A DNA stretch of 64,000 bases from Dawidia soli (GTDB lineage Bacteria; Bacteroidota; Bacteroidia; Cytophagales; Cyclobacteriaceae), in NCBI RefSeq assembly GCF_018598185.1, contig NZ_JAHESC010000026.1, positions 1 through 64,000 of the forward strand. The letters are read 5' to 3'. The position numbers were made by a program, and so were the translations under genes. Of the stretch, positions 3,380 through 19,667 are shown piece by piece. Below the pieces are notes generated by a model. The model was not told the DNA's origin. It did not search any database and was given only the letters and a program-made list of their open reading frames with translations. Position 1 is the first letter of the stretch. Every line of letters starts with the position of its first letter.

Positions 3380-3413
3380 GCGGTGCCTGTTATCATTCCT
3401 CTTCTACCCTATC

Positions 3414-6400
3414 CTACCGTAATAAATTGATATCGCCTGTGCGCGTAAACTGCTTACCATCGTCGTACTCGACGGTGATCTTATAGATGTACACATCCTG
3501 CTGGCAGAGCTGCCCCTTATAGTAGCCATCCCATCCCGACTCGGGGTTTGAGCTTTCAAACAGCAGCTGTCCCCACCGGTTGAAGACGAACATCTGGAAC
3601 TTGGTGACGTTACGCATGAGCGGCAGGAACACCTCGTTGTTCGACACATTGGTGCTGCCGGGCCCGGTGCCATTGGGCCGGAAGGCGTTGGGCACAAGCA
3701 ACTGTCCGCGTTTGATGGTTTGCACGGCGTTCGTGACGGAAACGGTGTCCGAGCATCCGCTGGGGTTGTAGGCGATGAGGGTGATGGTAAAGATGCCCTC
3801 TTCGGTATATTTATGCTGCGGTTCTATCTCGGTCGATGTCTGGCCGTCGCCAAAATCCCAGAGGAAGCTGGTCGCGCCGAAGCTGCGGTTGTTGGTATAC
3901 AGCGGCTCGGTGGGGATGTTGAGCACCTTGGGATAGGTGGCAAACTGTGCCGTGGGGCCGTCGTATGCCTCTATGATCTCTGATTTGGTGATATGAACGG
4001 TCTGCCCCAGGGCGTTTGACGCCGAAAGCGTGACCGAGTAGATGCCGGGTTCGAAATAGGTATGGACCGGATTGACGGAAGTCGACGTGCCGCCGTCACC
4101 AAAGTCCCAGACGTAGCTGCCCGGGTCGGCGTATTGCGAGGTGTTGGTGAACTGTACCGTTAAGGGTGAACAGCCTGAGGCGGGGTCATAGGTGAAGTCC
4201 AGTACGGGCGGAACAGGATGAATGGTGACCGTCTCGATATGGTCATCGACGCAATCATTGTCGCGCACGGTCAGCGTAATGGTATAGGTACCAAAGGTCG
4301 CGTACGTGTGCGGCGGCACGTCACGGCCGGTGGCGGTGGTACCGTCGCCGAAGTCCCACCGGTAATCCCACGGGCCGGGAGTACTGGTGTTGGTGACGGT
4401 GACGGTGGCATCGGGCAGTGTTTGTTCGACAGGCAATGCGGTAAAGGAGGCGCTGATGCCGGGGTTTCGTGGGATCAGCACGTTGTGTGTCGTGGGTGGA
4501 CTCGGGCAATTCGCGAAGTTGGTGGTGATAAGCCGGATGACGACGTTTTGGTCTACGGTGGTCGATCGCTGAATGGCATAATCGAGATTATCGCCTGTAG
4601 GGGTGGCCATCACCACGCCGTTGATGGTAATGCGCCAGTTGTAAGCCTGCAAGCCCTTTTGTGTGGCGTCGAGGTGCAGCACGACGGTATCGCATGTATA
4701 CGACACGGTGTCGTAGGTGAAGGCGGACGACGGCACGGGGTTTATGCGGATCGATACGGTCGAGTCGCCATAGCACGTGCTGGGCAACACCGCGCGCAGA
4801 GTGACGGTAAAGTCACGAATGGCCTGGGTCGCGTTTTGAAACTCATAGGTGAATGCGGGCGCGGTGCCGGTACTGACCCAATCCAATTGGCCCGAATCGT
4901 CGGCGACAGTCCAGATATACTCGGACGGGTTCATCGACTGCGTTTCGGTATCGACGGCAAAGTCCACTTCTACCGGCGAGCAGTTGTCGTTGAAGGGCGA
5001 ATAATTGAGGGACACAAAGCCTGCCGCGGGCCCGGGAAATACGGTGATCGTAACCGGTGCCGATACGGAGTCGCAGCCACGGTTTGTGACGGCCCGCAAC
5101 CGCACCCGATACTCGATGTTGACGAGCGTGTTGTTGACAAACTCGCGTGTATACTGACCGTCGAAGCCGGGATCGGTGGGGCGTTGTACGGCGTCTACCA
5201 GGAAGGTGCCGCTGCCGTCGTCAATCTCCCACCGGTATTCCTGAATGGTGGCGGCCTGGCTGGTGGCCGTGTTGGTGAAATTCACCGTCAGGATGCTACA
5301 GCCTGAGAGGCGATCGGCCGTAAAGGTAGAGAGCGGCTTGGGGTCTACAATGATGTTGGGCTTTACCAGCATCACTTCGCAGCCGCTGCTGGTGACGACG
5401 CGCAGGGCGACACGACGTGTACCGGCGGTGGTGTAGGTGTAATCGAATTCTGTTTCATCGTCGAGGGTCGGGTCTTTATCAAAGGTGCCGTCGTACTCCA
5501 TATCCCACTCACGCACGGTGATGCCTTCTGCCAGGATCGGATCGAGCGTGGTGGCATCTATAAAATGTGTAGCAATACCCAGGCAGACGCGGTTGAAGGT
5601 AAAGTCGGGTTTTGGTTTTTCGTATACGCGTATCGTGTCCGTGTCTTCGGTCGTACAAAGGGTTACGTTGTCACGCACGGTGAGTCGTACACGGTAAACG
5701 CCGGGGGTTGTAAAGGTGCGATCGAACGGGCCGAGCAGCGTTGTTGAAAAACCACCGCCGGTGGGCGATTCCAGGATCAGGGCTCCCGTGGCGTCAAAGA
5801 ACTCCCAGCGTCGCCCTGTCGTGGCCGTGGCCGTGCCGGTGGAGATATCGGTGAAGCGTACGTCGAAGTTGGTGAACGGTGCTGCGGCTTCCTGGCAGAA
5901 GTCCGTCGTTGCCAGCGGCCCGTTGGTCGCCGGATCGATCAGGCCTATGGCCGCTACGAGCGACGGCGTGATGTTTACGGTGTGGGTAATTTCAGCTTCA
6001 CACGTTCCCTGCGCCGAGTTATTGCGAACACGCAGGCGGACGAGCTTTGTCCCCCCGGTGGGATAAGAATAAACCGGATTCGCGTCGGTGCTGGTTTCCA
6101 GCAACGTGGTACCGGCTGCGTCGTCGTAAAACTCCCAGGTATACCCGAAGTTTCCGGAACCGGTGGTCTGGTTACGGAAAAAGATGTCTTCGTCGATGCA
6201 GAAGTTAGTCGTCGTGACGCCGGCGGCGTTGCGCGTAAAGAAGGCAGGCACGGGGGCGGCCACAATCTGCACATAGCCACGGGTAACGATAGCGTCTTCG
6301 TAGTTAGGATTGGCGTTGCTGCCATTCCAGGGATTGCATACGTTCCAATTAAACATCGTGACTTCAAAGCGATTACCTACTGCGTTGGCCGCGTCGGCGG

Positions 6401-7190
6401 GTGCGTTCATCGGTAATGATACGGAGATGGGCGCGTCGGCCGGTACAGGTACTATGTCTACGGGACCGAAGTACGCGGCTGTTACGGGGAGTACCGTGCC
6501 GCGGGTCTGTGGGCTTACCAGGTTGCCGGTGGCATTGGTGAGTGGCTGTGCACCGCCGTCGGTCAGTGTGAGATTGCGAATGGTAGCGGCAGGGTTGTGG
6601 TTGGTGCCATATACAAACTGCACGTGGCGTGCCGCACGGTTGGGCACGTCGGGCTCGACCTGGATGTTACAATTAAATTCGGAAGCGTCGCGGAAGACGG
6701 CATCGACGACGGGGTTGTTGTAACACACATTCCAGTTTTCCGGCGCCATCTCTACCTGACCATTCCCCTGATCGTCCGTGCTCCAAAAGAATGCACTCTG
6801 ACGCTGGATCGATGTCGGGCAAACGGCACCATTGATAACAATGTAGGCTGTGGGGATAATGCTACAATCGTTGTTGGTGTTGTAGGTAAAGTTCGCGTCT
6901 GCGGTAAATTCCGTATTACCGGCACCGACACTTAATCCGTTGCCTACGTTAACAAGTGTCGTAGAGTTTGCCGGGTCATTCCATTCATAGAGGATGGCGA
7001 TGGCGTTAGGATCTTGCGGCGTGGAGAAGGAATACGTTACGAGGAATTGTGTTACCGACACGGGCGCGCAGTCCTGATCCGTATCGAAATCTACGGAAAT
7101 TGTCGGGCGTAGCTGATTACACTGCGCATGCGCATGGTACACTGCCCCACAAAACAAAAAAAGAGAGAGTAAAGCTTTTTTTAAATCCAT
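3414..7190 (-). CDS. Large PKD-repeat adhesin with gliding-motility/T9SS type B C-terminal domain
   Basis: Secreted protein of 1258 residues. The start at 7190 opens directly into a signal peptide (MDLKKALLSLFLFCG...HAHAQ); the in-frame ATG at 7211 would add seven non-hydrophobic residues. The body is a tandem array of Ig-like modules, including two clear PKD modules with WDFGDG near residues 950-1060 (YRWDFGDGTT and YVWDFGDGGT) and a third (FLWDFGDGQT) near 1130. The C-terminal 75 residues carry the conserved domain NVTKFQMFVFNRWGQLLFES...GWDGYYKGQ...GDINLLR, the T9SS type B sorting signal seen in SprB-like proteins. It is expected to be exported by T9SS and displayed on the surface or released, with adhesion as the likely role. 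The PorP/SprF-like gene follows 34 nt downstream. Ligand unknown. Confidence 0.9.
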   Translation of the reverse strand: MDLKKALLSLFLFCGAVYHAHAQCNQLRPTISVDFDTDQDCAPVSVTQFLVTYSFSTPQDPNAIAILYEWNDPANSTTLVNVGNGLSVGAGNTEFTADANFTYNTNNDCSIIPTAYIVINGAVCPTSIQRQSAFFWSTDDQGNGQVEMAPENWNVCYNNPVVDAVFRDASEFNCNIQVEPDVPNRAARHVQFVYGTNHNPAATIRNLTLTDGGAQPLTNATGNLVSPQTRGTVLPVTAAYFGPVDIVPVPADAPISVSLPMNAPADAANAVGNRFEVTMFNWNVCNPWNGSNANPNYEDAIVTRGYVQIVAAPVPAFFTRNAAGVTTTNFCIDEDIFFRNQTTGSGNFGYTWEFYDDAAGTTLLETSTDANPVYSYPTGGTKLVRLRVRNNSAQGTCEAEITHTVNITPSLVAAIGLIDPATNGPLATTDFCQEAAAPFTNFDVRFTDISTGTATATTGRRWEFFDATGALILESPTGGGFSTTLLGPFDRTFTTPGVYRVRLTVRDNVTLCTTEDTDTIRVYEKPKPDFTFNRVCLGIATHFIDATTLDPILAEGITVREWDMEYDGTFDKDPTLDDETEFDYTYTTAGTRRVALRVVTSSGCEVMLVKPNIIVDPKPLSTFTADRLSGCSILTVNFTNTATSQAATIQEYRWEIDDGSGTFLVDAVQRPTDPGFDGQYTREFVNNTLVNIEYRVRLRAVTNRGCDSVSAPVTITVFPGPAAGFVSLNYSPFNDNCSPVEVDFAVDTETQSMNPSEYIWTVADDSGQLDWVSTGTAPAFTYEFQNATQAIRDFTVTLRAVLPSTCYGDSTVSIRINPVPSSAFTYDTVSYTCDTVVLHLDATQKGLQAYNWRITINGVVMATPTGDNLDYAIQRSTTVDQNVVIRLITTNFANCPSPPTTHNVLIPRNPGISASFTALPVEQTLPDATVTVTNTSTPGPWDYRWDFGDGTTATGRDVPPHTYATFGTYTITLTVRDNDCVDDHIETVTIHPVPPVLDFTYDPASGCSPLTVQFTNTSQYADPGSYVWDFGDGGTSTSVNPVHTYFEPGIYSVTLSASNALGQTVHITKSEIIEAYDGPTAQFATYPKVLNIPTEPLYTNNRSFGATSFLWDFGDGQTSTEIEPQHKYTEEGIFTITLIAYNPSGCSDTVSVTNAVQTIKRGQLLVPNAFRPNGTGPGSTNVSNNEVFLPLMRNVTKFQMFVFNRWGQLLFESSNPESGWDGYYKGQLCQQDVYIYKITVEYDDGKQFTRTGDINLLR

Positions 7191-7240
7191 CCCATTGACC
7201 CGGTTGCACACTTATCCTACCGATCAAAGGCCAGCTATAG

Positions 7241-7330
7241 AACTTGAAGACGGCCGTTAATAGCGAAGCGGGCACAAAAGAAACCTTCACAAACGGCCTG
7301 AAATATTACCTGATCGTCGAACCCGAATAA
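7241..7330 (+). pseudogene. Possible 3' remnant of a lost gene
   Basis: A 29-codon open stretch bounded by TAG at 7238-7240 and TAA at 7328-7330, with no ATG. The translation includes TKETFTNGLKYYLIVEPE, which looks like the last beta-strand and acidic end of a real protein rather than random sequence. No parent family is recognised. It may equally be chance. Confidence 0.25.
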
Positions 7331-7629
7331 TCCGGTGTTAAAGTGCGTGAATGTAAGTCGGATGGTTTAAAAAATCGGGCCGAAACCGATCCCAGGTATA
7401 ACGATGATGTTGAAAGCCTGAACAAATCTTGTCTCGAAACGCGGGCCACTTGTCCGGATTTTATTGGGAAATGTCGCCATCCGGGCATAGAAAGTTGTGA
7501 GCACGACACTAATTCACTTGGTTTTGTGGCGTAAATGGCTAATTTTAGAAACCAGAGGATGGGCCTATGGGAAGATTTTTACAGTATCACGTACGACCTC
7601 TCGTTACTTTCTATAAAAACCGCGTTTCG

Positions 7630-7697
7630 GAGGTTTTACGGGTGGCTAAACCTCTGATGCCGGCCGGTAGCCGTGTGCTACGGCTGGATAAACACCC
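7630..7697 (+). promoter_or_regulatory. Candidate structured RNA leader (two hairpins and a pseudoknot) of susC
   Basis: The leader can form hairpin 1 (GAGGTTT 7630-7636 with AAACCTC 7648-7654, 11-nt loop) and hairpin 2 (AGCCGT 7669-7674 with ACGGCT 7680-7685, 5-nt loop). The loop of hairpin 1 contains GGGTG (7640-7644), which is complementary to CACCC at 7693-7697, giving a possible pseudoknot. This lies 87 nt before the susC start. It does not match the consensus of any riboswitch I know, including cobalamin, TPP and SAM types. Pairing is seen in the sequence; function is inference. Confidence 0.35.
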
Positions 7698-7783
7698 ACG
7701 AGTCCCCGCCTTTTCTTACGGAAGATACTTCGTAATCAACACAGCGTTTTTTTACCAATTTACTCATTACCATACCTAACAGC

Positions 7784-10700
7784 ATGAAGAAATCTCTACT
7801 CCTCGGGCCCCTCCTCCTATGGACGATGCTGCAGGCACATGCCCAGGAATTTAAAGTTTCAGGAAAGGTGACGGCGGCAAAAGATGGTTCTTCCCTACCC
7901 GGGGTAAACATCCGAATTAAAAATACCAACCGCGGTACGATCACCGACGGTGACGGTGTATATGAGCTGATGGTGCGTTCTTCGCGCGACACGCTTGTCT
8001 TTTCGTTTATCGGCTTTCAGCCGCGCGAGGTTGTCGTGGGCCAACGGACCTCACTGGATATACCACTCGATGCGGAGACGACCGAGCTGGATGAAGTCAT
8101 CATCACGGGTTTCCAGGAAGTAGACCGGAAGTTGTTTACCGGTTCGACGGCCACGGTGAAGATGGCCAATATCAAGAGTACGGGGATGAACGATGCCAGC
8201 CGTATGCTGGAAGGCCAGGTAGCCGGTGTTACCGTTGACAATGTATCGGGTACGTTTGGTACGAGCCCCAAGATCCGCATTCGCGGCAACACCTCCATCA
8301 ACGGCGATACACAACCGCTGTGGGTGGTGGATGGAGTAATCCTGGAAGACCTTAACAACGTGGCGGCCGACGATATCATTACCGGCAATGCGAATACCCT
8401 GACGGCATCGTCTATCGCGGGGATCAACCCGGACGACATCGAGTCGTTCCAGGTACTGAAAGATGCTTCGGCGACGGCACTGTATGGTACGCGTGCCAAG
8501 AACGGTGTTATCGTGATCACCACCAAGAAAGGCAAGAGCGGTCAGACACGGGTGAGCTATGCGGGAAACTTCTCGATGAACCTGCGGCCCACTTATAAGC
8601 AGTATGACATTCTGAACTCGGCCGACGAGATGTCGGTATACCGCGAGATGTATGAGAAAGGTTTGATCGATATCACCACGGCGGTGAAAGCGCAGACGTT
8701 TGGAGCGCTGGGGAAGATGTTCAATGAGAAGAATGCCGGTACGCTAAACTGGAGCAACGAGGGCAGTGGTGGTCTGAATGAAGATTTCCTGCATCAATAC
8801 GAGACAGCCAACACCGACTGGTTCGATGTGTTGTTCCGCGATTTTTCCTTGCAACAGCAGCACTCGGTGAGCCTCACCACGGGTACCGAGAAGCACAACA
8901 GCTATTACTCGCTGAGCTATCTGAATGACAACGGTCAGACAATTGCGGACAACGTAAAGCGGTACTCGGGCACGGCGAAGAACAGCTTTATATTTTCGCC
9001 CAAGCTTATGGTCGATCTGAAGCTGACGGGCAACTATCGCGAGCAAAAGGTACCGGGCACACAGAACCGCGACTTCGATCCGATCTCCGGGCGTTTCCGG
9101 CGCGATTTCGATATCAATCCCCTGAGCTATGCGCTCAATACGAGCCGGTCGATCCGGCCTTACACCAGCGACGGTGTGCTGGAGTATTTCCGCCGGAACT
9201 ATGCGCCGTTTAACATTCTGGAAGAGCTTCGCCTGAACTTCATCAATATATCCGTTGCCGACGTTTCTACGCAGGCGGACATTACGTACCACATCCTGGA
9301 CAACCTCACCTTTCGCAGCACGCTGATGGGCCGCCATGCCACCACCAAACGCGAGCACGTTATACACGAGCGTTCAAACCAGGCAGAAGCATACCGTGCC
9401 GACGGCACACAATACATTGCCGATGCCAACCAGCTGTTGTACAAAGACCCGGATGATCCCAACGGCGAGCCCCTGGTCGTATTGCCGGAAGGCGGTTTTA
9501 ACAACGTGACGGAAGACGAGCTTCGGAACTTCTATGTACGGAACAGCCTGGATTGGTCGCACACCATCAACGACGTGCACCTGGTCAACGTCCTGGCGGG
9601 ACAGGAGATCAAGTATACCAACCGTACGAGCCTTCGCGCCGACGGTATCGGGGTGATGTATGACAACGGGGGCATTGTTAACCTGGACCCGAAGATGATC
9701 GAGTTCCTGAGCCGCCAGGGTATCCGCACGTACGCACTGGCCGTAGACCGTGAGCGGTTTGCCGGTCTGTTTATAAACGGCGCCTACTCCTACCGGGGCA
9801 AGTATATCTTTAACGGCACCGTGCGGTATGACGGTTCCAACCGGCTGGGTAAAGCGAAGAGCGCACGTTATCTGCCAACCTGGAACGTGAGCGGTGCCTG
9901 GAACGTGACCGAAGAAGACTTTGTCAATATCGACTGGCTGAACAGCCTGAAGCTGCGCGCCACGTACGGCCTGTCTGCCAACCTGGGGCCTAACACCAGC
10001 GCACTGCTGAACCTGCAGTCGGGCGTAACCCTTCGCCCGACCGATGTGGAGACCTACTTATACATCGATGCCCTGGAAAACCGCGACCTGACGTGGGAGA
10101 AGCTGAAAGAGTTTAACGTTGGGTTTGATTATGCGGTGCTGAACAACCGCGTGTCGGGCACGGTGGATTTCTTCAAGCGCAATTCGTACGATCTGATCGG
10201 GTTGATCCAGACGAGCGGTGTCGGGGGGAACCCGTACAAATATGGCAACTATGCGGACATGCAATCGCACGGCATTGAATTTACGATCAATTCGCAGAAT
10301 GTGCGCGTGGGTAACTTTTCCTGGGCTACGAGCTTTAACGTGGGATATACCAAAGACAAGATCACGCGTCTGAACTTCAATCCACGTTTAGGCGACGCGA
10401 TCGTACAGGGTGGCGCGGCAGTGCAGGGTGGTCCCCGCCGTGGTCTGTACTCCACACGTTTTGCGGGTCTCGATCACCGTGGCATTCCTACCTTCTATGA
10501 TGGCAGCGGCGAGATCGTTTACAACTACGACTTACAAGATCGGGAGAACATCTGGGACATTCTGCGGTATGACGGCCCGGCGGAGCCGCGGGGTGCCGGT
10601 GGCCTGACGAACATTTTTAATTATAAAGGGTTTACGCTCAGCGCGCTGTTGTCGTTCAAGTTCGACTATAAGATCCGGTTGGACGATGCGTACAGCCCAC

Positions 10701-11104
10701 GATATACTGATTTCAACTCGTTGTCGCGCAACTTTGTGAATCGCTGGGTGGTGCCGGGTGACGAGTTGATCACCGATGTGCCTGCTATTCTGGACAACAA
10801 CACGATCGTCACGGGAAATCCGGATTACCAGAGCGCATATGATCTCTACAACAAGAGCACGGTACGGGTGGCCGATGGTGGCTACGTGCGGTTAAAGACG
10901 GTGCGGGTAAGCTACAACTTACCGGGGCCATGGGTGCGGCGGATCGGTGCCAACACAGCGTCGATCTCGGTGGAAGGTCAGAATCTGGCCCTGCTCTACT
11001 CGGACAAAAAGCTCAACGGTCAGGACCCTGAGTTCTTTTCTTCGGGAGGCGTGGCGTTGCCACAGCCGCGACTGTTTACGACGGCGATCAACATCGGTTT
11101 TTAA
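7784..11104 (+). CDS. SusC/RagA-family TonB-linked outer-membrane receptor
   Basis: TonB-dependent transporter of 1106 residues that moves a substrate across the outer membrane using energy from TonB-ExbBD. In order: a signal peptide ending HAHAQ; a carboxypeptidase-regulatory-like domain at about 24-105 (FKVSGKVTAAKDG, ITDGDGVYEL); the SusC-type segment LDEVIITGF; the plug domain at about 110-240 with IRIRGNTSI, WVVDGVI and LKDASATALYGTRAKNGVI; and a 22-strand-type barrel ending in a terminal phenylalanine (TTAINIGF). Length is normal for the SusC class. A SusD partner begins 18 nt downstream. The cargo cannot be read from the sequence; no glycoside hydrolase is nearby, and the operon instead carries a metallohydrolase. 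Confidence 0.96.
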   Translation: MKKSLLLGPLLLWTMLQAHAQEFKVSGKVTAAKDGSSLPGVNIRIKNTNRGTITDGDGVYELMVRSSRDTLVFSFIGFQPREVVVGQRTSLDIPLDAETTELDEVIITGFQEVDRKLFTGSTATVKMANIKSTGMNDASRMLEGQVAGVTVDNVSGTFGTSPKIRIRGNTSINGDTQPLWVVDGVILEDLNNVAADDIITGNANTLTASSIAGINPDDIESFQVLKDASATALYGTRAKNGVIVITTKKGKSGQTRVSYAGNFSMNLRPTYKQYDILNSADEMSVYREMYEKGLIDITTAVKAQTFGALGKMFNEKNAGTLNWSNEGSGGLNEDFLHQYETANTDWFDVLFRDFSLQQQHSVSLTTGTEKHNSYYSLSYLNDNGQTIADNVKRYSGTAKNSFIFSPKLMVDLKLTGNYREQKVPGTQNRDFDPISGRFRRDFDINPLSYALNTSRSIRPYTSDGVLEYFRRNYAPFNILEELRLNFINISVADVSTQADITYHILDNLTFRSTLMGRHATTKREHVIHERSNQAEAYRADGTQYIADANQLLYKDPDDPNGEPLVVLPEGGFNNVTEDELRNFYVRNSLDWSHTINDVHLVNVLAGQEIKYTNRTSLRADGIGVMYDNGGIVNLDPKMIEFLSRQGIRTYALAVDRERFAGLFINGAYSYRGKYIFNGTVRYDGSNRLGKAKSARYLPTWNVSGAWNVTEEDFVNIDWLNSLKLRATYGLSANLGPNTSALLNLQSGVTLRPTDVETYLYIDALENRDLTWEKLKEFNVGFDYAVLNNRVSGTVDFFKRNSYDLIGLIQTSGVGGNPYKYGNYADMQSHGIEFTINSQNVRVGNFSWATSFNVGYTKDKITRLNFNPRLGDAIVQGGAAVQGGPRRGLYSTRFAGLDHRGIPTFYDGSGEIVYNYDLQDRENIWDILRYDGPAEPRGAGGLTNIFNYKGFTLSALLSFKFDYKIRLDDAYSPRYTDFNSLSRNFVNRWVVPGDELITDVPAILDNNTIVTGNPDYQSAYDLYNKSTVRVADGGYVRLKTVRVSYNLPGPWVRRIGANTASISVEGQNLALLYSDKKLNGQDPEFFSSGGVALPQPRLFTTAINIGF

Positions 11105-11122
11105 TTTAACGAGGGCATTTAT

Positions 11123-12583
11123 ATGAAACGATATATCACTCACCATCGCTCTTCGCTGCTGCTGGGTCTCCTGCTGCTGACGGCATGTGACCAATACCTG
11201 GAAGAAAACCCGGACAACCGTGTTGACCTGAACACGACCGAGAAGGCGGCGCAGTTGCTGACCAATGCGTACAGCGCAGGGGGCTACCAGTTTACGGAGT
11301 GGATGACAGACAACGTGACCTATACCAGCGGCACGACCAAGCTGCCGGAACACGTGCAGGCGTATGAATGGGAAGACATCTTTCCGGTAAACCAGGATAC
11401 TCCGACGAACTTCTGGGAAAACACCTACGATGCCATTGCGCATGCCAACGAGGTATTGGCGGTGATCGACAATCTCCCGGGCGAGGAAGCGCAGAGAGAT
11501 GCTGTCAAGGGCGAGGCGCTGCTGGCGCGTGCGTATGGACACTTTATGCTGGTGAACCTGTTTGCCAAACATTACGATGCGAGCACGGCTACTAGCGACC
11601 CGGGCATCCCCTACCCGACCGAACCGGAGCGCGACTTTCTGGTACAATACGAGCGCCTGTCGGTACAAGAAGTGTACGACCAGATCGAGGACGATATGCT
11701 GGACGGCTTGAGGCTGGTCGACGCGACCTTTTATGCCAATTCGGGCAAGTACCATTTTACCCGTGAAGCTGCGCTCGCGCTGGCCTCGCGCTTCTATCTT
11801 TTTAAGGGTGAATGGGAAAAGTGTATCAGCTATAGCACACAAATGCTGGGGGACGATCCGTCGGTCTTTGTAAAGGACATTTATGGCATGCTGGCGCAAA
11901 GCAGCAACGACGACGATTTTATCCGCAAGTATACAGCGCCGACGGAGCGCAGCAACCTGCTGATGATCCGGCAGGTGACGAACTTTCCGGTAAACGTGGG
12001 CTTCTGGCCGGACTTCAACATTTTCTCTTACTTGTTCTACATCAATCCTTTTAACAGCGATGACGACGCCCGTATCAGCACGGAAGGTTACCCCGTGTAC
12101 CAGCGCGGCGACAACGGCATCTGTGTGAACAAGTATGAGTTTTTGTTCGAGCGGAACAGCATCACGTCGAACGTGGGCCTGAACTATACGATCGCCACGG
12201 CATTTCATGGCGAAGAGGTGCTTCTGAACCGGGCCGAGGCATATGTACAGCTCAACCAGCTCAACCTGGCGCTGGCGGATCTGCAGATCCTTGCACGCAA
12301 GCGGTATACACCGACAGCCACGCTGACGACGAACCTGTTGCGCCAGTATTACAACAACTCCAACAACCAGCAGAACGCGCTGGTGTACGTTCTGGAGGAA
12401 CGGCAAAAGGAGTTCATTCACGAGGGTTTGCGCTGGTTCGACATCAAGCGCTATGGCTACATGATACGGCACCTTTTACAAGATGGCAGCATCATTATCC
12501 TGGAGGCAGACGACAAGCGCAAGGTGCTGCAAATACCCCAGGCGGCCATCGACGTCGGTGGTCTTACCCCCAATGAACGTTAA
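11123..12583 (+). CDS. RagB/SusD-family nutrient-binding lipoprotein
   Basis: Surface lipoprotein of 486 residues that pairs with the SusC-like receptor as its substrate-binding lid. The signal peptide ends with a lipobox LLTAC (Cys22), followed by the typical SusD start DQYLEENPDN. Family hallmarks follow: an N-terminal helical segment with TEKAAQLLTNAY, the TPR-like helices (KGEALLARAYGHFMLVNLFAKHY), and the C-terminal ERQKEFIHEGLRWFDIKRYG motif, which is highly conserved in SusD/RagB. Length is slightly below average, as usual for this short SusD class. It lies 18 nt after susC and 24 nt before the metallohydrolase gene, clearly one operon. Substrate unknown. Confidence 0.95.
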   Translation: MKRYITHHRSSLLLGLLLLTACDQYLEENPDNRVDLNTTEKAAQLLTNAYSAGGYQFTEWMTDNVTYTSGTTKLPEHVQAYEWEDIFPVNQDTPTNFWENTYDAIAHANEVLAVIDNLPGEEAQRDAVKGEALLARAYGHFMLVNLFAKHYDASTATSDPGIPYPTEPERDFLVQYERLSVQEVYDQIEDDMLDGLRLVDATFYANSGKYHFTREAALALASRFYLFKGEWEKCISYSTQMLGDDPSVFVKDIYGMLAQSSNDDDFIRKYTAPTERSNLLMIRQVTNFPVNVGFWPDFNIFSYLFYINPFNSDDDARISTEGYPVYQRGDNGICVNKYEFLFERNSITSNVGLNYTIATAFHGEEVLLNRAEAYVQLNQLNLALADLQILARKRYTPTATLTTNLLRQYYNNSNNQQNALVYVLEERQKEFIHEGLRWFDIKRYGYMIRHLLQDGSIIILEADDKRKVLQIPQAAIDVGGLTPNER

Positions 12584-12607
12584 TCACCTCCTATCGACAT
12601 TTCTTAT

Positions 12608-13486
12608 ATGAAACATATCATCACTAAAATCACCCCGTTGTTATTGACCGGCACGTTGCTGATGACGGTTGGATGCTACCAGCGCGACGAGATCGATATT
12701 GAACAACGCGATACCACGCCTTCGACGGACGAGCTGGACATTTACATTCAACAGAATTTTGTCAAGCCGTATGGCGTCGCCGTGCGGTATGCGTACGTGG
12801 ACCGGTATGTAGACCCCAGCAAGCGTGTGACACCACCCGACCGCGACAATGTGATCCCGATGCTGAAGTTTTTACAGAGCTATTGGGTCGACCCGTTCAC
12901 ACAAGTGCCGAATGGCACAACATTCTTTAAGAAGTATGTTCCCTCGGAAGTGGTGTTTATCGGTTCGACAATCTACAATGCCGACGGCACGGAGATCCTC
13001 GGTACGGCCGATGCGGGAGCGCGCATTACATTGTCGCGCGTGAACTACATCGACACCCTAGACCAGCAATGGATGTTCCTGCAGTTGGGCACGATCTACC
13101 ATGAATTTGCACACGTGATGCACCAGAACTTCAAGCTGCCGCCTAACTTCCAAAGTATCTCCCCGCAGGGCTATACATCTTCGGGATCGTGGTTTGTGCT
13201 GACGGATGAAGAGGCGCTGCAACGCGGTTTTGTTTCCCCCTATGCTACCAGCTCGTTCAACGAAGATTTTGCCGAGACCGTGGCGTTTATCCTGTACTAT
13301 CCGAACTTCTACGAGCGTTATTATAACGACGAGGAGAATTGCGCTACGCTGGACTGTTTAGCCCGCAACGAGGGCCGTGAATTGATCCGCCAGAAGTACA
13401 ATGCTATTCTGGCGCATTATAAGCAGTATACCGGTGTGGATCTGTTGGAGATCCGTGCCATTGTTCAAGAGAAACTGTCAGAGTAA
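12608..13486 (+). CDS. Substrate import-associated zinc metallohydrolase lipoprotein (HExxH)
   Basis: Lipoprotein of 292 residues matching the family known as substrate import-associated zinc metallohydrolase lipoprotein, which is usually encoded beside SusC/SusD pairs. The signal peptide has a lipobox MTVGC (Cys23). The zinc site is HEFAH at residues 165-169 within IYHEFAHVMHQNF; the downstream EDFAETVAFIL segment (about 220-230) is a plausible source of the third ligand, as in gluzincin-like enzymes. The likely role is hydrolysis of a peptide or similar bond in cargo captured by the SusCD pair, but no substrate has been shown. It sits 24 nt after susD and 21 nt before the DUF4302 gene. Family call is strong; activity is inferred. 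Confidence 0.9.
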   Translation: MKHIITKITPLLLTGTLLMTVGCYQRDEIDIEQRDTTPSTDELDIYIQQNFVKPYGVAVRYAYVDRYVDPSKRVTPPDRDNVIPMLKFLQSYWVDPFTQVPNGTTFFKKYVPSEVVFIGSTIYNADGTEILGTADAGARITLSRVNYIDTLDQQWMFLQLGTIYHEFAHVMHQNFKLPPNFQSISPQGYTSSGSWFVLTDEEALQRGFVSPYATSSFNEDFAETVAFILYYPNFYERYYNDEENCATLDCLARNEGRELIRQKYNAILAHYKQYTGVDLLEIRAIVQEKLSE

Positions 13487-13507
13487 CCCTTTCTACCGCG
13501 CTATACT

Positions 13508-14881
13508 ATGTATTTACCGATAAAAAAATCTCTTTCCCTGACGTGGTTCTGTCTTGTGCTTTTGCTGGCGGGGTGTAAGGATGACGATTTCAATAAATTC
13601 GACAAGTCGGCAGACGAACGTGTTGCCGAGGCCAAGGCTGATCTGAAGAACAGCCTGGTGTCGCCCACGCACGGCTGGAAGCTGCTCTATACGCCGCAGG
13701 AGGGGTATGGTTCGTTCCTGGTGCTGCTGGACTTTCAGGAGGACAACAAGGTGACCATCAAGACCGATCTGGGTGTGAGCGACGGCAAGTTTTATGAGCA
13801 AACCATCGGTTATCGCATTGACAGCTCCCTGGGACTCGAGCTGATCATGGAGAACTTCTCGTTCTTTGCTTATCTGTTTGAATTAGATCGGGCTACGTTT
13901 GGCGCCGAGTTTGAGTTTAACTACGTGCGGAAAAACGACAACGGTTCGTTGCTGTTCAGCAGCAAGTCGGACGTTTCCGATCCCACACAACTGCTTTTTG
14001 AAGAAGCGAGTGAGGACGACCTGGATGATCCCGGTGTGCGAGTGGCCGAGAAGCTGACGACGATGACGGCCGACTTACACAAGATCACCACATCACTGCG
14101 CATGACGTACGAGGACAAGGACCTGATCTTTTATCTATCGCTACAGGAATCTTACCGGCTGCTGACGATTTCGTCGGCCTCCCGGAAGAGTAATACAAAT
14201 ACCACTCAACAGCTGAATTTTACGACGGGTTATTATTTGAAGAACGACTCGATCATATTTCACTCCCCGCTGGCGGGAACGTTTGTCGGCATCGCCACCT
14301 CTTTAAAAGGCATCCAGGTGAACGGTTTGGAAAATACCGAGCTGGACCTGTGTGATGATCCCATTCCGCTGCATGGCTATAAAGGTGTAACCTCGGCAGG
14401 CGACGATGTGTTGCTGGAAACGTCTGTGGCGGATGCCAGCGGCGCGACATTTACGAAGTTCGATTTTCTCCAGGGGCCTCCTGCCAACGTGGCCTATCTA
14501 GGGGAGACGGCATATGAGCAGGTGACAACCGATATCAACACGCCGACACACATTCAACTGTATTACAACTATAGCCTGGGCGACGGCTCGACGATCAACG
14601 CCCTGGGCTTCCGCATTCAAAACCCCGACGGTTCGATCACGTTTGCCTTGTGGGAATTTGTGCCGACGCTGGAAGGCAATAACCTGAAGTTCGACTTTGC
14701 GCCCGAGATCAGTGAGCTGGGGGACGGCCCGACGTCGGAAGAGAACCTGGCGGCGGTAAAAAAATACATTGAATACCTGACGGATGGCGGTAATACCTAT
14801 GTATTCCAATACAGCGACGGCGTGTATGAGTTCAGTAACCCCTGTACCGGATGGAGCGCTCTTCTAATTGCACCACAATAG
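13508..14881 (+). CDS. DUF4302 surface lipoprotein
   Basis: Lipoprotein of 457 residues resembling DUF4302, a family that recurs beside the HExxH lipoprotein and SusCD genes in Bacteroidota. The lipobox is LAGC (Cys23), followed by KDDDF, which fits the acidic lipoprotein export signal (lysine then aspartates) that directs lipoproteins to the cell surface in Bacteroidota. Early conserved features are SPTHGWKLLYTPQEGYGSF and later repeated beta-strand patterns suggesting two related beta-rich domains. No catalytic motif is visible, so a binding role is more likely than an enzymatic one. It follows the metallohydrolase by 21 nt and precedes the Calx-beta lipoprotein by 25 nt. Confidence 0.85.
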   Translation: MYLPIKKSLSLTWFCLVLLLAGCKDDDFNKFDKSADERVAEAKADLKNSLVSPTHGWKLLYTPQEGYGSFLVLLDFQEDNKVTIKTDLGVSDGKFYEQTIGYRIDSSLGLELIMENFSFFAYLFELDRATFGAEFEFNYVRKNDNGSLLFSSKSDVSDPTQLLFEEASEDDLDDPGVRVAEKLTTMTADLHKITTSLRMTYEDKDLIFYLSLQESYRLLTISSASRKSNTNTTQQLNFTTGYYLKNDSIIFHSPLAGTFVGIATSLKGIQVNGLENTELDLCDDPIPLHGYKGVTSAGDDVLLETSVADASGATFTKFDFLQGPPANVAYLGETAYEQVTTDINTPTHIQLYYNYSLGDGSTINALGFRIQNPDGSITFALWEFVPTLEGNNLKFDFAPEISELGDGPTSEENLAAVKKYIEYLTDGGNTYVFQYSDGVYEFSNPCTGWSALLIAPQ

Positions 14882-14906
14882 AAACAAAACCTAAATCTTA
14901 ATAATC

Positions 14907-16301
14907 ATGCGAAACCCTTACCCATTTTCCAAATCGTTGCTCGCACTGGCCGTTGTTGGTGTGAGCTTGTCCGCCTGTAAAGACGACGACGGCGACTCGA
15001 AGCCTGTCGTAGGCTTTGCATCTTCTACCCTGTCAGCGAGCGAAAGCAACGGCACGATCGAGGTAGAAGTCGAGCTGGACAAGGCGGCTTCCCAGGATAT
15101 CACGGTGACCTATAACCTGGGTGGTACGGCGCGTGACCGCGAAAGCGGTGGTGCCATTAATTACGACTACACGATCGCCGGCACGGCCGGTGAGATCACC
15201 ATTGAAGAGGGTGAAACAAGCGCCACCATCGAGATCGCGCTGAACGACGATGGCATTGCGGACAACAACGAAACCATCGTGCTGTCGCTGGACGATGTCG
15301 AGGGCGACCGCGCTGTGGTTGGTGACGATGACGAGATCACCATTACCGTTGCGGACGGCGTGCTGCTTCCCCAGGTATCATTCTCAGAATCCACGTTGTC
15401 ACTCTATGAGTCGGATGACGAGACTGAGATCGAGGTTATCCTGGATCGGGCGGCCACCACAGACATTACCGTCACGTATGAAGTGGCCGGCACGGCTACC
15501 GACGCTGTGACGGCCGAGGCCGAAGACCTCTGGGCGGACTACGAAATTGAAGACCAGGGAACGGTGGTAATCAAGGCGGGACAAACCAGCGCGACTATTT
15601 TGCTTTCGCCGATCACCGACATCTGGATGGAGGACGATCCGTTCACCGAAGAAACAGAGGCTGAAACCATCGAGCTCTCCATCACCAACGTAAGCACCGG
15701 CGCCATTATCTCGGCAAACAATACCCTGGAGATCGACCTTCTACAGGAGGCCGGGCTTTTTGCTTTCCTGGGCTGGGGCACGGAAGGAAACGAGTATCCT
15801 GACGTAGACATGGACCTGATCTTCTGGCTGAAACAATCCGGTTCACTGCAACCATTTGCCGCTTCGTCGTATGAAGGTCCTGAATATTTCGAGGCGATCT
15901 TCATTCCGGATGTATTGCCGAACGGGCAATATGGCCTGTCGTATTCGTACACCTCGGGAACGGAGAACGAGATGCAGTTCTTCATCAGCTTTACACATTA
16001 CGCTGAAGGTGGTTTTGACAACGACAATTCGACTGAATTTACGGAAACATATAGCCTGGCAGACATTACGGACTGGCGCGAGAATGGTGTTTCTTCGATC
16101 TTCCTTTCTCAGACGTTTGACCAGACAGACGATGGCTTCGATAATTTCTCAGCCATTATGAAGCCTTCTAATGCTGGCCGTCTGGGTGCTCCGGCGGCAG
16201 CAGCGGGAAGCTTCCCGGCGAAGCTACAGCGAAAAACTGCTCCGCGGTCCTTCCTGCATCACAAGGCTGGCTTGCGCGAGCGCGTTCGGGCAGGGCTATA
16301 A
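14907..16301 (+). CDS. Calx-beta repeat surface lipoprotein
   Basis: Lipoprotein of 464 residues ending the susCD operon. The lipobox is LSAC (Cys24) followed by KDDDGD, again a surface-export-like acidic signal. Residues about 33-147 and 150-285 form two Calx-beta-like modules (VGFASSTLSASESNG..., VSFSESTLSLYESDD...) with TVTY, GEITIEEGETSATI and DNNETIVLSL signatures that often bind calcium. Residues about 290-415 form a beta-rich domain I do not recognise. The last 45 residues switch to a basic, alanine- and arginine-rich tail unlike the acidic body. The role could be surface binding of cargo for the SusCD complex. A strong terminator follows 21 nt after the stop. Confidence 0.8.
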   Translation: MRNPYPFSKSLLALAVVGVSLSACKDDDGDSKPVVGFASSTLSASESNGTIEVEVELDKAASQDITVTYNLGGTARDRESGGAINYDYTIAGTAGEITIEEGETSATIEIALNDDGIADNNETIVLSLDDVEGDRAVVGDDDEITITVADGVLLPQVSFSESTLSLYESDDETEIEVILDRAATTDITVTYEVAGTATDAVTAEAEDLWADYEIEDQGTVVIKAGQTSATILLSPITDIWMEDDPFTEETEAETIELSITNVSTGAIISANNTLEIDLLQEAGLFAFLGWGTEGNEYPDVDMDLIFWLKQSGSLQPFAASSYEGPEYFEAIFIPDVLPNGQYGLSYSYTSGTENEMQFFISFTHYAEGGFDNDNSTEFTETYSLADITDWRENGVSSIFLSQTFDQTDDGFDNFSAIMKPSNAGRLGAPAAAAGSFPAKLQRKTAPRSFLHHKAGLRERVRAGL

Positions 16302-16322
16302 TTCACACTAAAAGCTAAGAAG

Positions 16323-16354
16323 AAGGCTGTCCTTTATCAGGACAGCCTTTTTTT
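16323..16354 (+). terminator. Rho-independent terminator of the susCD operon
   Basis: Perfect 10-bp stem AAGGCTGTCC / GGACAGCCTT around a 7-nt loop, followed by a T run to 16354. It ends the plus-strand operon and overlaps the last codon of the convergent permease gene. Read on the minus strand the stem is not followed by a T run, so it acts in one direction. Confidence 0.93.
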
Positions 16355-18983
16355 ATTCATAACGCAGGGCACGCGTGGGATTTGCCAGTGCCGTGCGCAT
16401 GGACCGTGCGGCTACCAGCAACAAGGTAAGGCCGAGTACCGCCACGACGGGTACAACAAACCACCACCACGCCAGCGGCACGCGGAAGGCAAAGGCCTGC
16501 AGCCACTGTGCGCTGAAATAATAGGCCAACGGTGTGGCCACCGCACAGGCCAGGCCGATGAGGATCAGGTACGGCTTCGACATCAGTACGATGATGCTGT
16601 CGACGGATGCTCCGAGCACTTTGCGAATGCCCATTTCTTTCGTACGCTTGGAAACGGCGAGTGACACCATGCCGAAGACGCCGGTGAAGACGATGACGAG
16701 CATCAGCCCCGTGGCCACGCCGGAGGCTTTTTTCAGTCGCATTTCATTTTTATACAGCCTTGCCAGCTCCTGGTCCATGAAAGTGTATACGAAGGGGTCG
16801 TCGGGGAATACCTGGCGCCACTTCGCTTCGACGGCAGCCACAGCACCAGCCATGTTGCCGGCTTCCAATTTGACGGAGAAGTGCCGGAAGGCTTTGGTGC
16901 CGCGGGTGTGCAGAAAGGCCATGGGCTTTACATTTTCGCGCAGGGAAAAGAAGTGAAAATCCTGGATGATACCGGCGACGGTAAACACGACGGTATCGTT
17001 CTTTATCCGCACTTTGTCGCCGACGTTCACGCTCAATGCCTTGCCTGCAGATTCGTTTATCACCATATCTCCCAGGTGCCAGGCATGCTGTTCGTCGGCC
17101 AGGAATACCCCTTCTTTCATTGGAATGCCGTAGGTGTCGGCAAAATGTTCGTCGGTCATAAGCAGAGGCATATCGACGGCTTTGTCTTCGTCAACACCTT
17201 GCCGGTAACATTGCACCTGGTTGCCGTAGTTGCCGGCGGGGATCTCCCATGACAGGCTTATGTCTTTTACCATGGGTAACGATAAAAACTCCTGTCGCGC
17301 GGCTTCGATAGACCGCACTCCTTCTTCGGACCAACGACGGGGTACGGATGAGATGGTGAGCACGTAATCTTTATCGTAGCCCAGATCTTTTTGCAGGAAG
17401 AATGCTACCTGGCGTGTAATGACAATGGAGAATGCAAAGACGCCCATGGCCAGTATAAATTGTACGACCACCAGGGATCGCGAGAGGCCGCCGGCCTTCC
17501 CCGACGATGCCTTATTTCGAAGGGATTCAACGGCGTTGTACGACGATAATAGAAAGGCGGGATAGGCACCCGCGAGCACTCCCACCGTGAGCGTAATCAA
17601 CAGCATCACGCCGATAAAAACGATGCCCAGGTCACTCACCGCGGGCAGCAGGATGCCCAGTATGTCGCCGGCATAGGGACGCGCCAGTGCGTACACACCC
17701 AATGCCAACAGGAACGCCCCGACACTCAGGGCCGACGACTCGGCCAGGAACTGTGCGATGAGCTGCCCGCGACGGCCGCCGACGGCCTTGCGCACGCCGA
17801 TCTCGCGCAGGCGCCCCAGCGCGCTGCCGATGGTGATGTTGATAAAGTTAATAACGGCCAGCACGAGGATAAAGACCGCGATGGCCGATACCGTGTAGAG
17901 CAGCTTCTTTACGCGGCCGTCGTCGGCTTCCAGGTAATAGGTACGCAACGGGTTGAGCGTGACGGTCAGCTTGCGCAGGTCTTCTGGAGCCTGCGTCTGC
18001 ATAACGTTGGCGATGGCCTTTTCTGCATCGGTGCGCATGGCGCCGGAGCGCAGCCTGAGGTAGCTGACCATGACGCCGCTCTCCCATTTCTCCGGGTCGT
18101 TCAACTTATATACATCGTTCTTTTGTACGCTGAGAAAGATCTGTGCGTCCATGTCTACCAGGTCAGTAACGGAGTTGCGCGGCAGATCGTCGAGGACGGC
18201 GGTTATGGTATAGTCGTAGCGTTTGTTGTCGCCCGACTCTCCTGAAAGCGTGAGGGTCTCTCCCACTACATCGGTGCGATTAAAGAAACGCAACGCCGTT
18301 GCTTTGGCGATGACGATGGACCGCGTGTCGCGAAAGGCATTCACGGCATCGCCGTGTAATACCGGCAGGCCCAGGAGCGACACCAGTGTCGAGTCGCCGA
18401 TCTGGCCCTGGAGGCGGAAGTGCTGATCTTCCCTGGATACGGTGATCATCTTATCCCAAAAGCGATAATATCCTTCGAACAGCAGCGGGTATTGTTCGGT
18501 GACTGCCGATGGCAGCGGCGCGGGTGACAGAAAGGGACGCCAGAATGTTCCGTCGGCCATCGATGTCTCCGCCATGTACAGCCGATCGACGTCGTGCAGT
18601 GACGCGTTCACACGAAGTTCCTGGTGGACGAAGATGCCGATCATCAGGGCAAAGGCCAACCCGATGGTGAGGCCGAGGATGTGAATGGCCGAATGGGTCT
18701 TCTGCTTCCACATGGCGCGGAGCATAACCTTACCATAGTTTTTTATCATCGATGCAGGGGTTAGGGTGTACGAGAGCTTGTTTCGCAGGAGTATGCCGGG
18801 GCGGAAGAACCGCAGTACCTGCCAGGTAAACCGGCGACGGGCGATGCGATGCCCCACGTTAGCGCAGTCTTCTTCGAACTGCTCGAGCAGGTCTCCTTCT
18901 ATGCCTTCGCTCAGCGCCGGCGGACAGAACCAACGCAGGAAGCGAAGGGCTATAGCGGGTGGTTGCACGGAATGTCGTTGCAT
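16353..18983 (-). CDS. FtsX/MacB-type ABC transporter permease with permease prefix domain
   Basis: Inner-membrane permease of 876 residues. The start at 18983 (MQRHSVQPPAIAL) is preferred over the ATG at 19025 because it leaves 2 nt after the padR stop instead of a 42-nt overlap. In order: a cytoplasmic prefix domain (residues about 8-70, FLRWFCPPALSEGIEGDLLEQF) found on Bacteroidota permeases paired with PadR regulators; a first transmembrane helix and MacB-like periplasmic core; a three-helix FtsX domain near 360-480 (REIGVRKAVGGRRGQLI); a second periplasmic core; and a final FtsX domain (KEMGIRKVLGASVDSI). The matching ATPase is not encoded here. It probably moves lipids, lipoproteins or drugs across or out of the envelope. 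Expression is likely controlled by the upstream PadR gene. Confidence 0.9.
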   Translation of the reverse strand: MQRHSVQPPAIALRFLRWFCPPALSEGIEGDLLEQFEEDCANVGHRIARRRFTWQVLRFFRPGILLRNKLSYTLTPASMIKNYGKVMLRAMWKQKTHSAIHILGLTIGLAFALMIGIFVHQELRVNASLHDVDRLYMAETSMADGTFWRPFLSPAPLPSAVTEQYPLLFEGYYRFWDKMITVSREDQHFRLQGQIGDSTLVSLLGLPVLHGDAVNAFRDTRSIVIAKATALRFFNRTDVVGETLTLSGESGDNKRYDYTITAVLDDLPRNSVTDLVDMDAQIFLSVQKNDVYKLNDPEKWESGVMVSYLRLRSGAMRTDAEKAIANVMQTQAPEDLRKLTVTLNPLRTYYLEADDGRVKKLLYTVSAIAVFILVLAVINFINITIGSALGRLREIGVRKAVGGRRGQLIAQFLAESSALSVGAFLLALGVYALARPYAGDILGILLPAVSDLGIVFIGVMLLITLTVGVLAGAYPAFLLSSYNAVESLRNKASSGKAGGLSRSLVVVQFILAMGVFAFSIVITRQVAFFLQKDLGYDKDYVLTISSVPRRWSEEGVRSIEAARQEFLSLPMVKDISLSWEIPAGNYGNQVQCYRQGVDEDKAVDMPLLMTDEHFADTYGIPMKEGVFLADEQHAWHLGDMVINESAGKALSVNVGDKVRIKNDTVVFTVAGIIQDFHFFSLRENVKPMAFLHTRGTKAFRHFSVKLEAGNMAGAVAAVEAKWRQVFPDDPFVYTFMDQELARLYKNEMRLKKASGVATGLMLVIVFTGVFGMVSLAVSKRTKEMGIRKVLGASVDSIIVLMSKPYLILIGLACAVATPLAYYFSAQWLQAFAFRVPLAWWWFVVPVVAVLGLTLLLVAARSMRTALANPTRALRYE

Positions 18984-18985
18984 GG

Positions 18986-19318
18986 TTATGCCGTGGTTAT
19001 GTCCAGCTGCGGTATAAGTTTCCAAAGGTCCATGCGCGCTTCTTTCATCGTACGCAACATGGACAAGCCGGCATTCGTAATGGTAAAGATCCGCTTGCGG
19101 CGGCCGCCGCGGGCGTTCGTTACACCGCCCATGGTCGACCTGACCAGACCTTTGTCTTCGAGCCGGTACAACGTAACGTGTACTGCGCTGAGGTTCGAGT
19201 CACGGCCGAGACGGTCTTTGATGGCCGTGACAACGGCATTTCCGTAGGCTTCTTCGCCGAGTACTCCTACCATGGTCAGGACCAGTTCTTCGAACTCGCC
19301 CAGGTATTCTTTGCTCAT
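18986..19318 (-). CDS. PadR-family transcriptional regulator
   Basis: DNA-binding repressor of 110 residues with the PadR winged helix. The start at 19318 (MSKEYLGEFEELVLTMVG) is the usual family start; the upstream in-frame ATG at 19411 would add 31 residues across a repeated operator-like sequence. Core motifs are YGNAVVTAIKDRLGRD, LSAVHVTLYRLEDKGLV (recognition helix) and GGRRKRIFTITNAG (wing). The permease gene begins 2 nt after its stop, so the two are translationally linked and the regulator probably controls its own operon. Two 26-bp repeats overlap and precede its start codon and are the likely binding sites. The inducing signal is unknown. Confidence 0.93.
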   Translation of the reverse strand: MSKEYLGEFEELVLTMVGVLGEEAYGNAVVTAIKDRLGRDSNLSAVHVTLYRLEDKGLVRSTMGGVTNARGGRRKRIFTITNAGLSMLRTMKEARMDLWKLIPQLDITTA

Positions 19319-19375
19319 TTGTATATTTTTTGTAAAACAAATTAACGGGATTTGTATATATTTTGTTAGACAAAT
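19317..19375 (-). promoter_or_regulatory. Twin 26-bp PadR operator candidates
   Basis: Two near-identical 26-bp sequences at 19317-19342 and 19350-19375, with starts 33 bp apart (about three helical turns). Each has the inverted repeat ATTTGT-N14-ACAAAT around an AT-rich centre. The proximal copy covers two bases of the padR start codon, so binding would block transcription or translation start. Autoregulation by adjacent operators is established for PadR proteins; the assignment here is inference from position and symmetry. Confidence 0.7.
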
Positions 19376-19667
19376 CATGAATTCTTTAACATCACACTGA
19401 TTTTCAGACACTTAAATAACAGACAACGAAACGCAATATAGTGATGGGCAATATTGCCGGGGCCACGGATCGGCCCGGCCAGCAGGTGATGTACTTCCAG
19501 GATCAGGCATGGTGATCGAAGTCTTAAACTACATTCGGCCCATGGCTGAAGCATCGTTAAAGCAGCCTCCTCATTACTGCTTCAACTGTGCCGCAGCTGT
19601 GCTGCAACACTGCGGGAACTATGCTGCAACCCCGGATGTGCCCAGGAGTAACCCTATCTCTACGTTA
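19376..19667. other. Gene-free interval between padR and the helicase fragment
   Basis: Nothing gene-like is seen. It contains a 12-bp perfect palindrome GGCAATATTGCC (19447-19458) with a GC-rich imperfect hairpin just after it, and two copies of GCTGCAAC near 19601 and 19623. The 3' end of the helicase fragment lies at 19668. Confidence 0.4.

Follow-up and report, generated by a model that had tools for sequence, protein, structure and literature searches.

A SusCD operon of Dawidia soli with a predicted surface zinc peptidase resembles the iron capture system of Capnocytophaga canimorsus

What does a SusCD importer carry into the cell when its operon encodes a zinc metallopeptidase-type lipoprotein in place of a glycoside hydrolase? 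The question is raised by positions 7784-16301 (plus strand) of a 64,000-nucleotide (nt) stretch of Dawidia soli DNA, positions 1 to 64,000 of contig NZ_JAHESC010000026.1, referred to here as the window. The region holds a row of five genes whose first four, encoding SusC, SusD, an HExxH protein and a DUF4302 protein, are a fixed module also found in Capnocytophaga. By analogy with the iron capture system (ICS) of C. canimorsus, the operon could be a surface machine that captures a carrier, clips it and imports the released piece. This reading, with iron as the most likely cargo, is put forward tentatively, at slightly less than an even chance. The features of the operon, with protein lengths in amino acids (aa), are as follows.

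7784..11104, plus strand: SusC/RagA-type TonB-dependent outer-membrane importer, 1106 aa (TIGR04056, 653.7 bits; Plug at residues 119-242)
11123..12583, plus strand: SusD-like lid lipoprotein, 486 aa (PF14322, SusD-like_3, 126.1 bits; PF07980, 46.7 bits; lipobox ..LLTAC)
12608..13486, plus strand: HExxH zinc metallopeptidase-type lipoprotein of the icsE type, 292 aa (TIGR04549; PF15890, Peptidase_Mx1)
13100..13114, plus strand: codons of the HEFAH zinc motif, residues 165-169 (alignment of 34 sequences)
13262..13276, plus strand: codons of EDFAE, residues 219-223 (same alignment of 34 sequences)
13508..14881, plus strand: DUF4302 lipoprotein in the icsF position, 457 aa (PF14135, 83 bits, cut-off 27)
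14907..16301, plus strand: accessory Calx-beta lipoprotein, 464 aa (PF03160, 52 bits, cut-off 27)
16318..16354, plus strand: intrinsic terminator 3' of the fifth gene, with a 16-bp stem, a 5-nt loop and a T-rich 3' side (RNA fold, -23.5 kcal/mol)

The five genes form one real operon. Open reading frame (ORF) coordinates gave intergenic gaps of 18, 24, 21 and 25 nt, and together with the -23.5 kcal/mol hairpin they agree with the single unit and strong terminator described in an initial annotation of this DNA. The hairpin at 16318-16354 was not listed by the consensus scanner, probably because its stem extends into the T tract. The family matches likewise bear out a receptor and lid accompanied by a metallopeptidase, and no glycoside hydrolase was found by Pfam among the operon's own five proteins. 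Inspection by eye placed a lipobox cysteine in four of the five products, SusC excepted, and KDDD directly after the lipid cysteine of the last two, the DUF4302 and Calx-beta lipoproteins, just as had been annotated. The KDDD of the two lipoproteins is close to a described surface export signal, K-(D/E)2 (PMC5080379).

The SusC-SusD-HExxH-DUF4302 row is a fixed module. Matches to TIGR04549 and to DUF4302 above their cut-offs were obtained in the identical 16 of 296 sampled Bacteroidota genomes, in line with the earlier remark that the two families are a recurrent pair; eight further genomes of the 296 gave TIGR04549 matches below the cut-off and were without DUF4302. A set of 130 loci, window excluded, was then taken, one of which (L187) had no closed HExxH gene. 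The complete row stood at 128 of the resulting 129 HExxH genes, which are not independent cases, the loci having been fetched via the HExxH gene and some being present twice; the remaining locus (L093) ends at a contig end. Since the same order recurs at 128 of 129 HExxH genes, the gene order of the window lies beyond chance. A scan of named genomes returned at least 573 relatives, and among the best 80, which were kept, were Capnocytophaga bilenii, C. catalasegens, C. sp. oral taxon 863, Elizabethkingia, Ohtaekwangia koreensis and Parachryseolinea silvisoli. Among the same best 80, the module core was also present in largely environmental genera such as Flavobacterium, Pedobacter and Chitinophaga; one Flavobacterium with the module is F. 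saccharophilum DSM 1811 (L179). Ten pattern matches were obtained on viral contigs with one query sequence, a search that reaches close relatives only, and none was related to the HExxH protein. Some Flavobacteriaceae loci adjoin genes for Porin_10 (L168, L128) or RNase HII (L168), which look like housekeeping neighbours.

A module of this kind is on record from Capnocytophaga canimorsus, a bacterium of the dog mouth. Its SusCD-type ICS locus (icsA and icsC to icsH) is reported to take iron from serotransferrin and to need every polypeptide (PMC5429918). The same source gives B739_0103 to B739_0098 of Riemerella anatipestifer as homologues of icsC to icsH that are upregulated under iron limitation, with table values of 3.06 to 3.81 for B739_0103, 0102, 0101 and 0100 (icsC, icsD, icsE and icsF, respectively), and its entry for B739_0101, which corresponds to icsE, reads 'Substrate import-associated zinc metallohydrolase', the name of TIGR04549 (PMC5429918). 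A C. canimorsus Cc5 locus is entered elsewhere as 'Iron uptake transferrin' (PMC12565237), and an ICS locus is mentioned for C. cynodegmi (PMC4447898). The four module genes were found in the same order in C. bilenii, C. catalasegens and C. sp. oral taxon 863, with SusCs scoring 885-927 bits against that of the window, and BLASTP identities between the window and C. bilenii were 41% for SusC, 34% for SusD and 31% for the HExxH protein. DUF4302 directly follows HExxH in four Capnocytophaga loci (L122, L134, L135 and L138), as in the window. The genes downstream of the module differ among the Capnocytophaga loci themselves; in C. bilenii (L134:12429-15964) a 905-aa CarboxypepD_reg-domain protein and a DUF5689 lipoprotein follow it. 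The initial annotation had spoken of a candidate for an undescribed system with no known substrate, a claim that is not supported, as icsC to icsE match by name and order and icsF by position (PMC5429918). The kind of system has already been described, and the window operon, by the match of its core, is a further locus of that kind.

Searches of the D. soli genome (7.48 Mb, 122 contigs) with the window SusC gave 201 matches. The best of these after the window SusC itself, at 869-1057 bits, were the SusCs of four other HExxH/DUF4302 loci (C36, L040; C50, L039; C52, L042; C89, L041), the next match reaching 192 bits, and D. soli holds five SusC-SusD-HExxH-DUF4302 loci in total, the window copy included. 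The locus on C50 (L039) contains two DUF4302 genes and is very close, in the HExxH tree, to L200 of Parachryseolinea silvisoli, which makes the host a probable member of the Fulvivirgaceae. A single SusC lineage therefore runs through the own-genome loci (869-1057 versus 192 bits), and receptor, lid, enzyme and DUF4302 protein seem to have travelled together. The window SusC is without the N-terminal extension of its FecR-linked relatives: its plug begins at residue 119, and the start falls at residues 118-120 in the SusCs of the window, L089, L094 and C. bilenii versus 205-239 in those of the FecR-linked L046, L039, L057 and L200. The closest solved SusC, 8ypt/8ypu, scored 360 bits against that of the window; it was considered as a solved member of the lineage, but with two further SusCs of the module it gave about 350 bits, so that it probably lies outside.

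The HExxH protein matched TIGR04549 with 218.4 bits (cut-off 75) and Peptidase_Mx1 with 198.8 bits (cut-off 25.6). H165 and E166, named earlier as HExxH residues, proved invariant in 34 of 34 aligned sequences, as did H169 of the zinc motif, the lipobox cysteine C23, and E219, D220, F221 and E223. The EDFAE stretch at 219-223 is presumably the region of the third zinc ligand, a role that we infer by way of gluzincin-type enzymes. Two solved relatives were found, 9urd (136 bits, residues 19-288) and 4l7a (100 bits, residues 38-290), and 4l7a was also the best structural match of the predicted model (pLDDT 85.7; Z 24.2, rmsd 3.1 over 237 residues). By fold and motif, the protein is likely to be a zinc endopeptidase. 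A tree of 54 HExxH rows, whose bootstrap had not fully settled, placed the window copy in a 7-row clade (100/97) within an 11-row clade (100/99, stem 0.84); identity to members of the clade was 52-56%, versus 29-37% for the other matches of the same search. Longer HExxH proteins of 437-465 aa, exceeding that of the window by about 150 residues, are encoded at L040, L041, L054, L055, L056, L097, L098, L192, L202 and L208.

The predicted model of the DUF4302 protein was moderate (pLDDT 73.3, pTM 0.67). Residues 41-170 resembled the periplasmic domain of ToxS (Z 10.2), lipocalins (Z 5-7.5, siderocalin about 5) and potempin E (8ehd, Z 7.3), values that may signify merely a common arrangement, and the N-terminal domain is perhaps lipocalin-like. 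The potempins of Tannerella inhibit proteases. It could be, as a long shot, that the HExxH enzyme and a lipocalin-like DUF4302 protein form an obligate pair on the SusCD barrel, comparable with the potempins, in which the partner acts as inhibitor, chaperone or cargo-holder, and that the clade of the window strips an environmental iron- or metal-carrying protein. If true, this would define a class of protease-armed importers for host-free bacteria, with several parallel specificities per genome.

The fifth gene had been counted as a core part of the system; it lies outside the conserved system. Besides its Calx-beta domain, the protein has a BT_3987-like_N match of 25.4 bits, just below the cut-off of 25.9, and a basic, Ala/Arg-rich C-terminal tail (window 16236-16301) on an otherwise acidic remainder, for which drift and frameshift are both possible. 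It has no paralogue in its own genome and gave no phmmer match in loci L089-L094. Matches were found in 72 of 291 genomes of the order, the own genome included, the best other reaching 57 bits, and no SusC or SusD was seen around the two best outside matches (L236, L237). A place for the gene in the conserved module was rejected on these grounds and because the contents of its slot vary. Directly 3' of DUF4302, within 45 nt and on the same strand, the gene encodes a Calx-beta protein in the window and L057, a BACON protein in L043, a protein with a sub-threshold DUF5018 match in L127, and small lipoproteins in L041, L098 and L200. In L225 a tandem pair of DUF4302 genes is followed, after 11 nt, by an Asparaginase_2 gene (L225:5513-6553), and a like protein, equal at 312 of 346 positions, is encoded at L226:13053-14093. 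In the clade members L090 and L094 a small lipoprotein gene stands ahead of SusC instead; the extra lipoprotein of L090, 24 nt before SusC, reaches 20.2 bits with Lipocalin_4, short of the cut-off of 22.4. The Calx-beta protein is one choice of accessory lipoprotein and no defining part.

The six neighbouring window genes scanned with Pfam encode an MFS protein, a DUF1569 protein, one protein without a match, a PorP/SprF protein, a PKD/CHU_C protein and a MacB/FtsX permease. Neither a glycoside hydrolase nor a regulator of the sigma, anti-sigma or sensor type was found among these six. The absence of an ECF sigma factor had been listed as a feature of the operon; it held for the six neighbours and is no distinguishing mark, since FecR, found upstream in 84 of the 129 related loci, three of the four own-genome paralogues among them, is missing in the other 45; the latter include the fourth paralogue, L040, as well as the Capnocytophaga loci and L089-L094 of the window clade. 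Loss of sigma factor and FecR as a hallmark of the window clade alone is ruled out by the same figures. The exact Bacteroidetes-type promoter motif TAnnTTTG was not found in 7001-7784, where a near match, TTG-19-TAATTTT, lies at 7518; no 8-mer was common to four or more of the seven clade upstream regions. Elsewhere in the window, the PorP/SprF gene adjoins a gene for a PKD-repeat protein of 1265 aa that bears a type IX secretion signal of the CHU_C family (2366-7211), and the MacB/FtsX permease (16353-19411) has a small same-strand gene upstream that looks PadR-like by eye. Another protein with a type IX signal of the CHU_C family, an FG-GAP/TIG/PKD protein (55871-59191), has the same length as the operon SusC, 1106 aa, and belongs to different families.

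The leading interpretation of these data is that, on the outside of the cell, the DUF4302 and Calx-beta lipoproteins would bind a carrier resembling a protein or peptide, which the predicted endopeptidase would cut or loosen. SusD would then close over the released piece, and SusC would draw it across the outer membrane, powered by TonB, as the SusCD families suggest. The prize would most likely be iron on a protein or chelator, by the precedent of C. canimorsus. D. soli is probably free-living, and its natural carrier would hardly be transferrin.

Several observations weigh against this interpretation. Iron limitation in R. anatipestifer raised two other polysaccharide-type loci and lowered three, so the induction is not specific (PMC5429918), and in B. 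thetaiotaomicron BT3958-59 (TonB receptor/SusC and SusD) and BT3961 (DUF4302) went down 2.6-3.6-fold in iron depletion, BT3960 not being listed (PMC10434189). A Fur consensus of E. coli was sought in 17 upstream regions (seven of window-clade members and ten others): in the 300 nt before the window SusC the best match was 11/19, equalled in 75% of 60 single-base shuffles, and the best matches in the 16 further regions were equalled by 32-100% of shuffles. The DUF4302 protein of the window gave no BLASTP hit to that of C. bilenii at 1e-3 (44 bits by phmmer), the equation of icsF with DUF4302 is drawn from gene position alone, and equivalents of icsA, icsG and icsH, for which no sequence comparison was made, were not identified for the window operon. 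The HExxH clade of the window stands apart from that of Capnocytophaga, and function may have shifted. The further structural matches of the HExxH model, to lethal-factor-type zinc endopeptidases (ranks 2-12, Z 8.7-10.9) and the Pro-Pro-endopeptidase type (Z 6.6-8.2), speak for the interpretation but are to be read with the caution that Z below 8, or below about 13 for mostly helical models, may reflect a common arrangement. The asparaginase beside the module, finally, hints at a peptide or glycopeptide cargo in L225 and L226. Given the low-iron decrease of BT3958-59 and BT3961 and the lack of a Fur-like site in the upstream regions, more weight is put on the broad reading, in which a surface peptidase is coupled to SusCD and the imported cargo is proteinaceous or a metal, than on the iron reading.

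If iron were incidental, the operon might serve protein, peptide or glycopeptide nutrition, with surface cleavage by the HExxH protein and import of peptides through SusCD as a source of carbon and nitrogen. The endopeptidase-like fold of the predicted model, the asparaginases of L225 and L226, the low-iron decrease in B. thetaiotaomicron (PMC10434189) and the lack of an iron gene among the six scanned neighbours would all suit such a role, and five paralogous loci in one genome suggest several cargoes. Against it stand the iron phenotype of C. canimorsus and the induction under iron limitation in R. anatipestifer (PMC5429918), and, asparaginase apart, no amino-acid gene was evident among the close downstream genes, which were partly scanned. 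Nutrition of this kind is considered unlikely, though it is the most serious of the rivals.

SusCD is also the classic glycan importer, and the operon could be a glycan or glycoprotein utilisation locus with its glycoside hydrolases located elsewhere; in Carboxylicivirga (L185) the module is followed at a distance of 3.3 kb by a GH92 gene, with an opposite-strand gene in between. However, that GH92 and a GH19 chitinase (L136) were the only such enzymes among 60 chosen neighbour proteins scanned with Pfam, and the six window neighbours had none, which makes a glycan locus improbable. Marginally less probable still is that the operon takes up a different metal complex or a small molecule, such as a siderophore, haem or a cobalamin-like compound; DUF4302 would then be a carrier of the lipocalin type, and the zinc protein with the HExxH motif would be structural, not catalytic. 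The lipocalin-like N-terminal domain suggested for DUF4302 and the Lipocalin_4-like lipoprotein of L090 point that way, but the lipocalin matches are weak (Z 5-7.5 on a model of pLDDT 73) and the invariance of E166 argues for catalysis. The best guess, as first annotated, is a cargo other than a glycan, be it a protein, a peptide or a metal complex.

Compared with known systems, the ICS-type reading finds its likeness at several levels. BACCAC_01431 of Bacteroides caccae (4l7a, a putative zinc metallopeptidase) and 9urd belong to the same HExxH lipoprotein family as the window protein, their entries carrying titles and molecule names without a tested function. Loci of TIGR04549, 'substrate import-associated zinc metallohydrolase lipoprotein', have the full SusC-SusD-HExxH-DUF4302 core in common with the window, which differs in having no FecR and an HExxH protein of a divergent clade. 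With the ICS itself the window shares the row icsC-icsD-icsE, its SusC, SusD and HExxH genes agreeing in order and in the names of their families, while DUF4302 takes the position of icsF; in the Capnocytophaga loci L122, L134, L135 and L138, as in the window, no FecR or sigma gene was found beside the module. The window differs from the ICS in its added Calx-beta lipoprotein, its HExxH clade and its probably free-living host. The core of a reported serum-iron thief of animal-associated bacteria is present in largely environmental genera, and five times in D. soli, which makes its cargo, and the role of the surface peptidase, of particular interest in bacteria living apart from animals.

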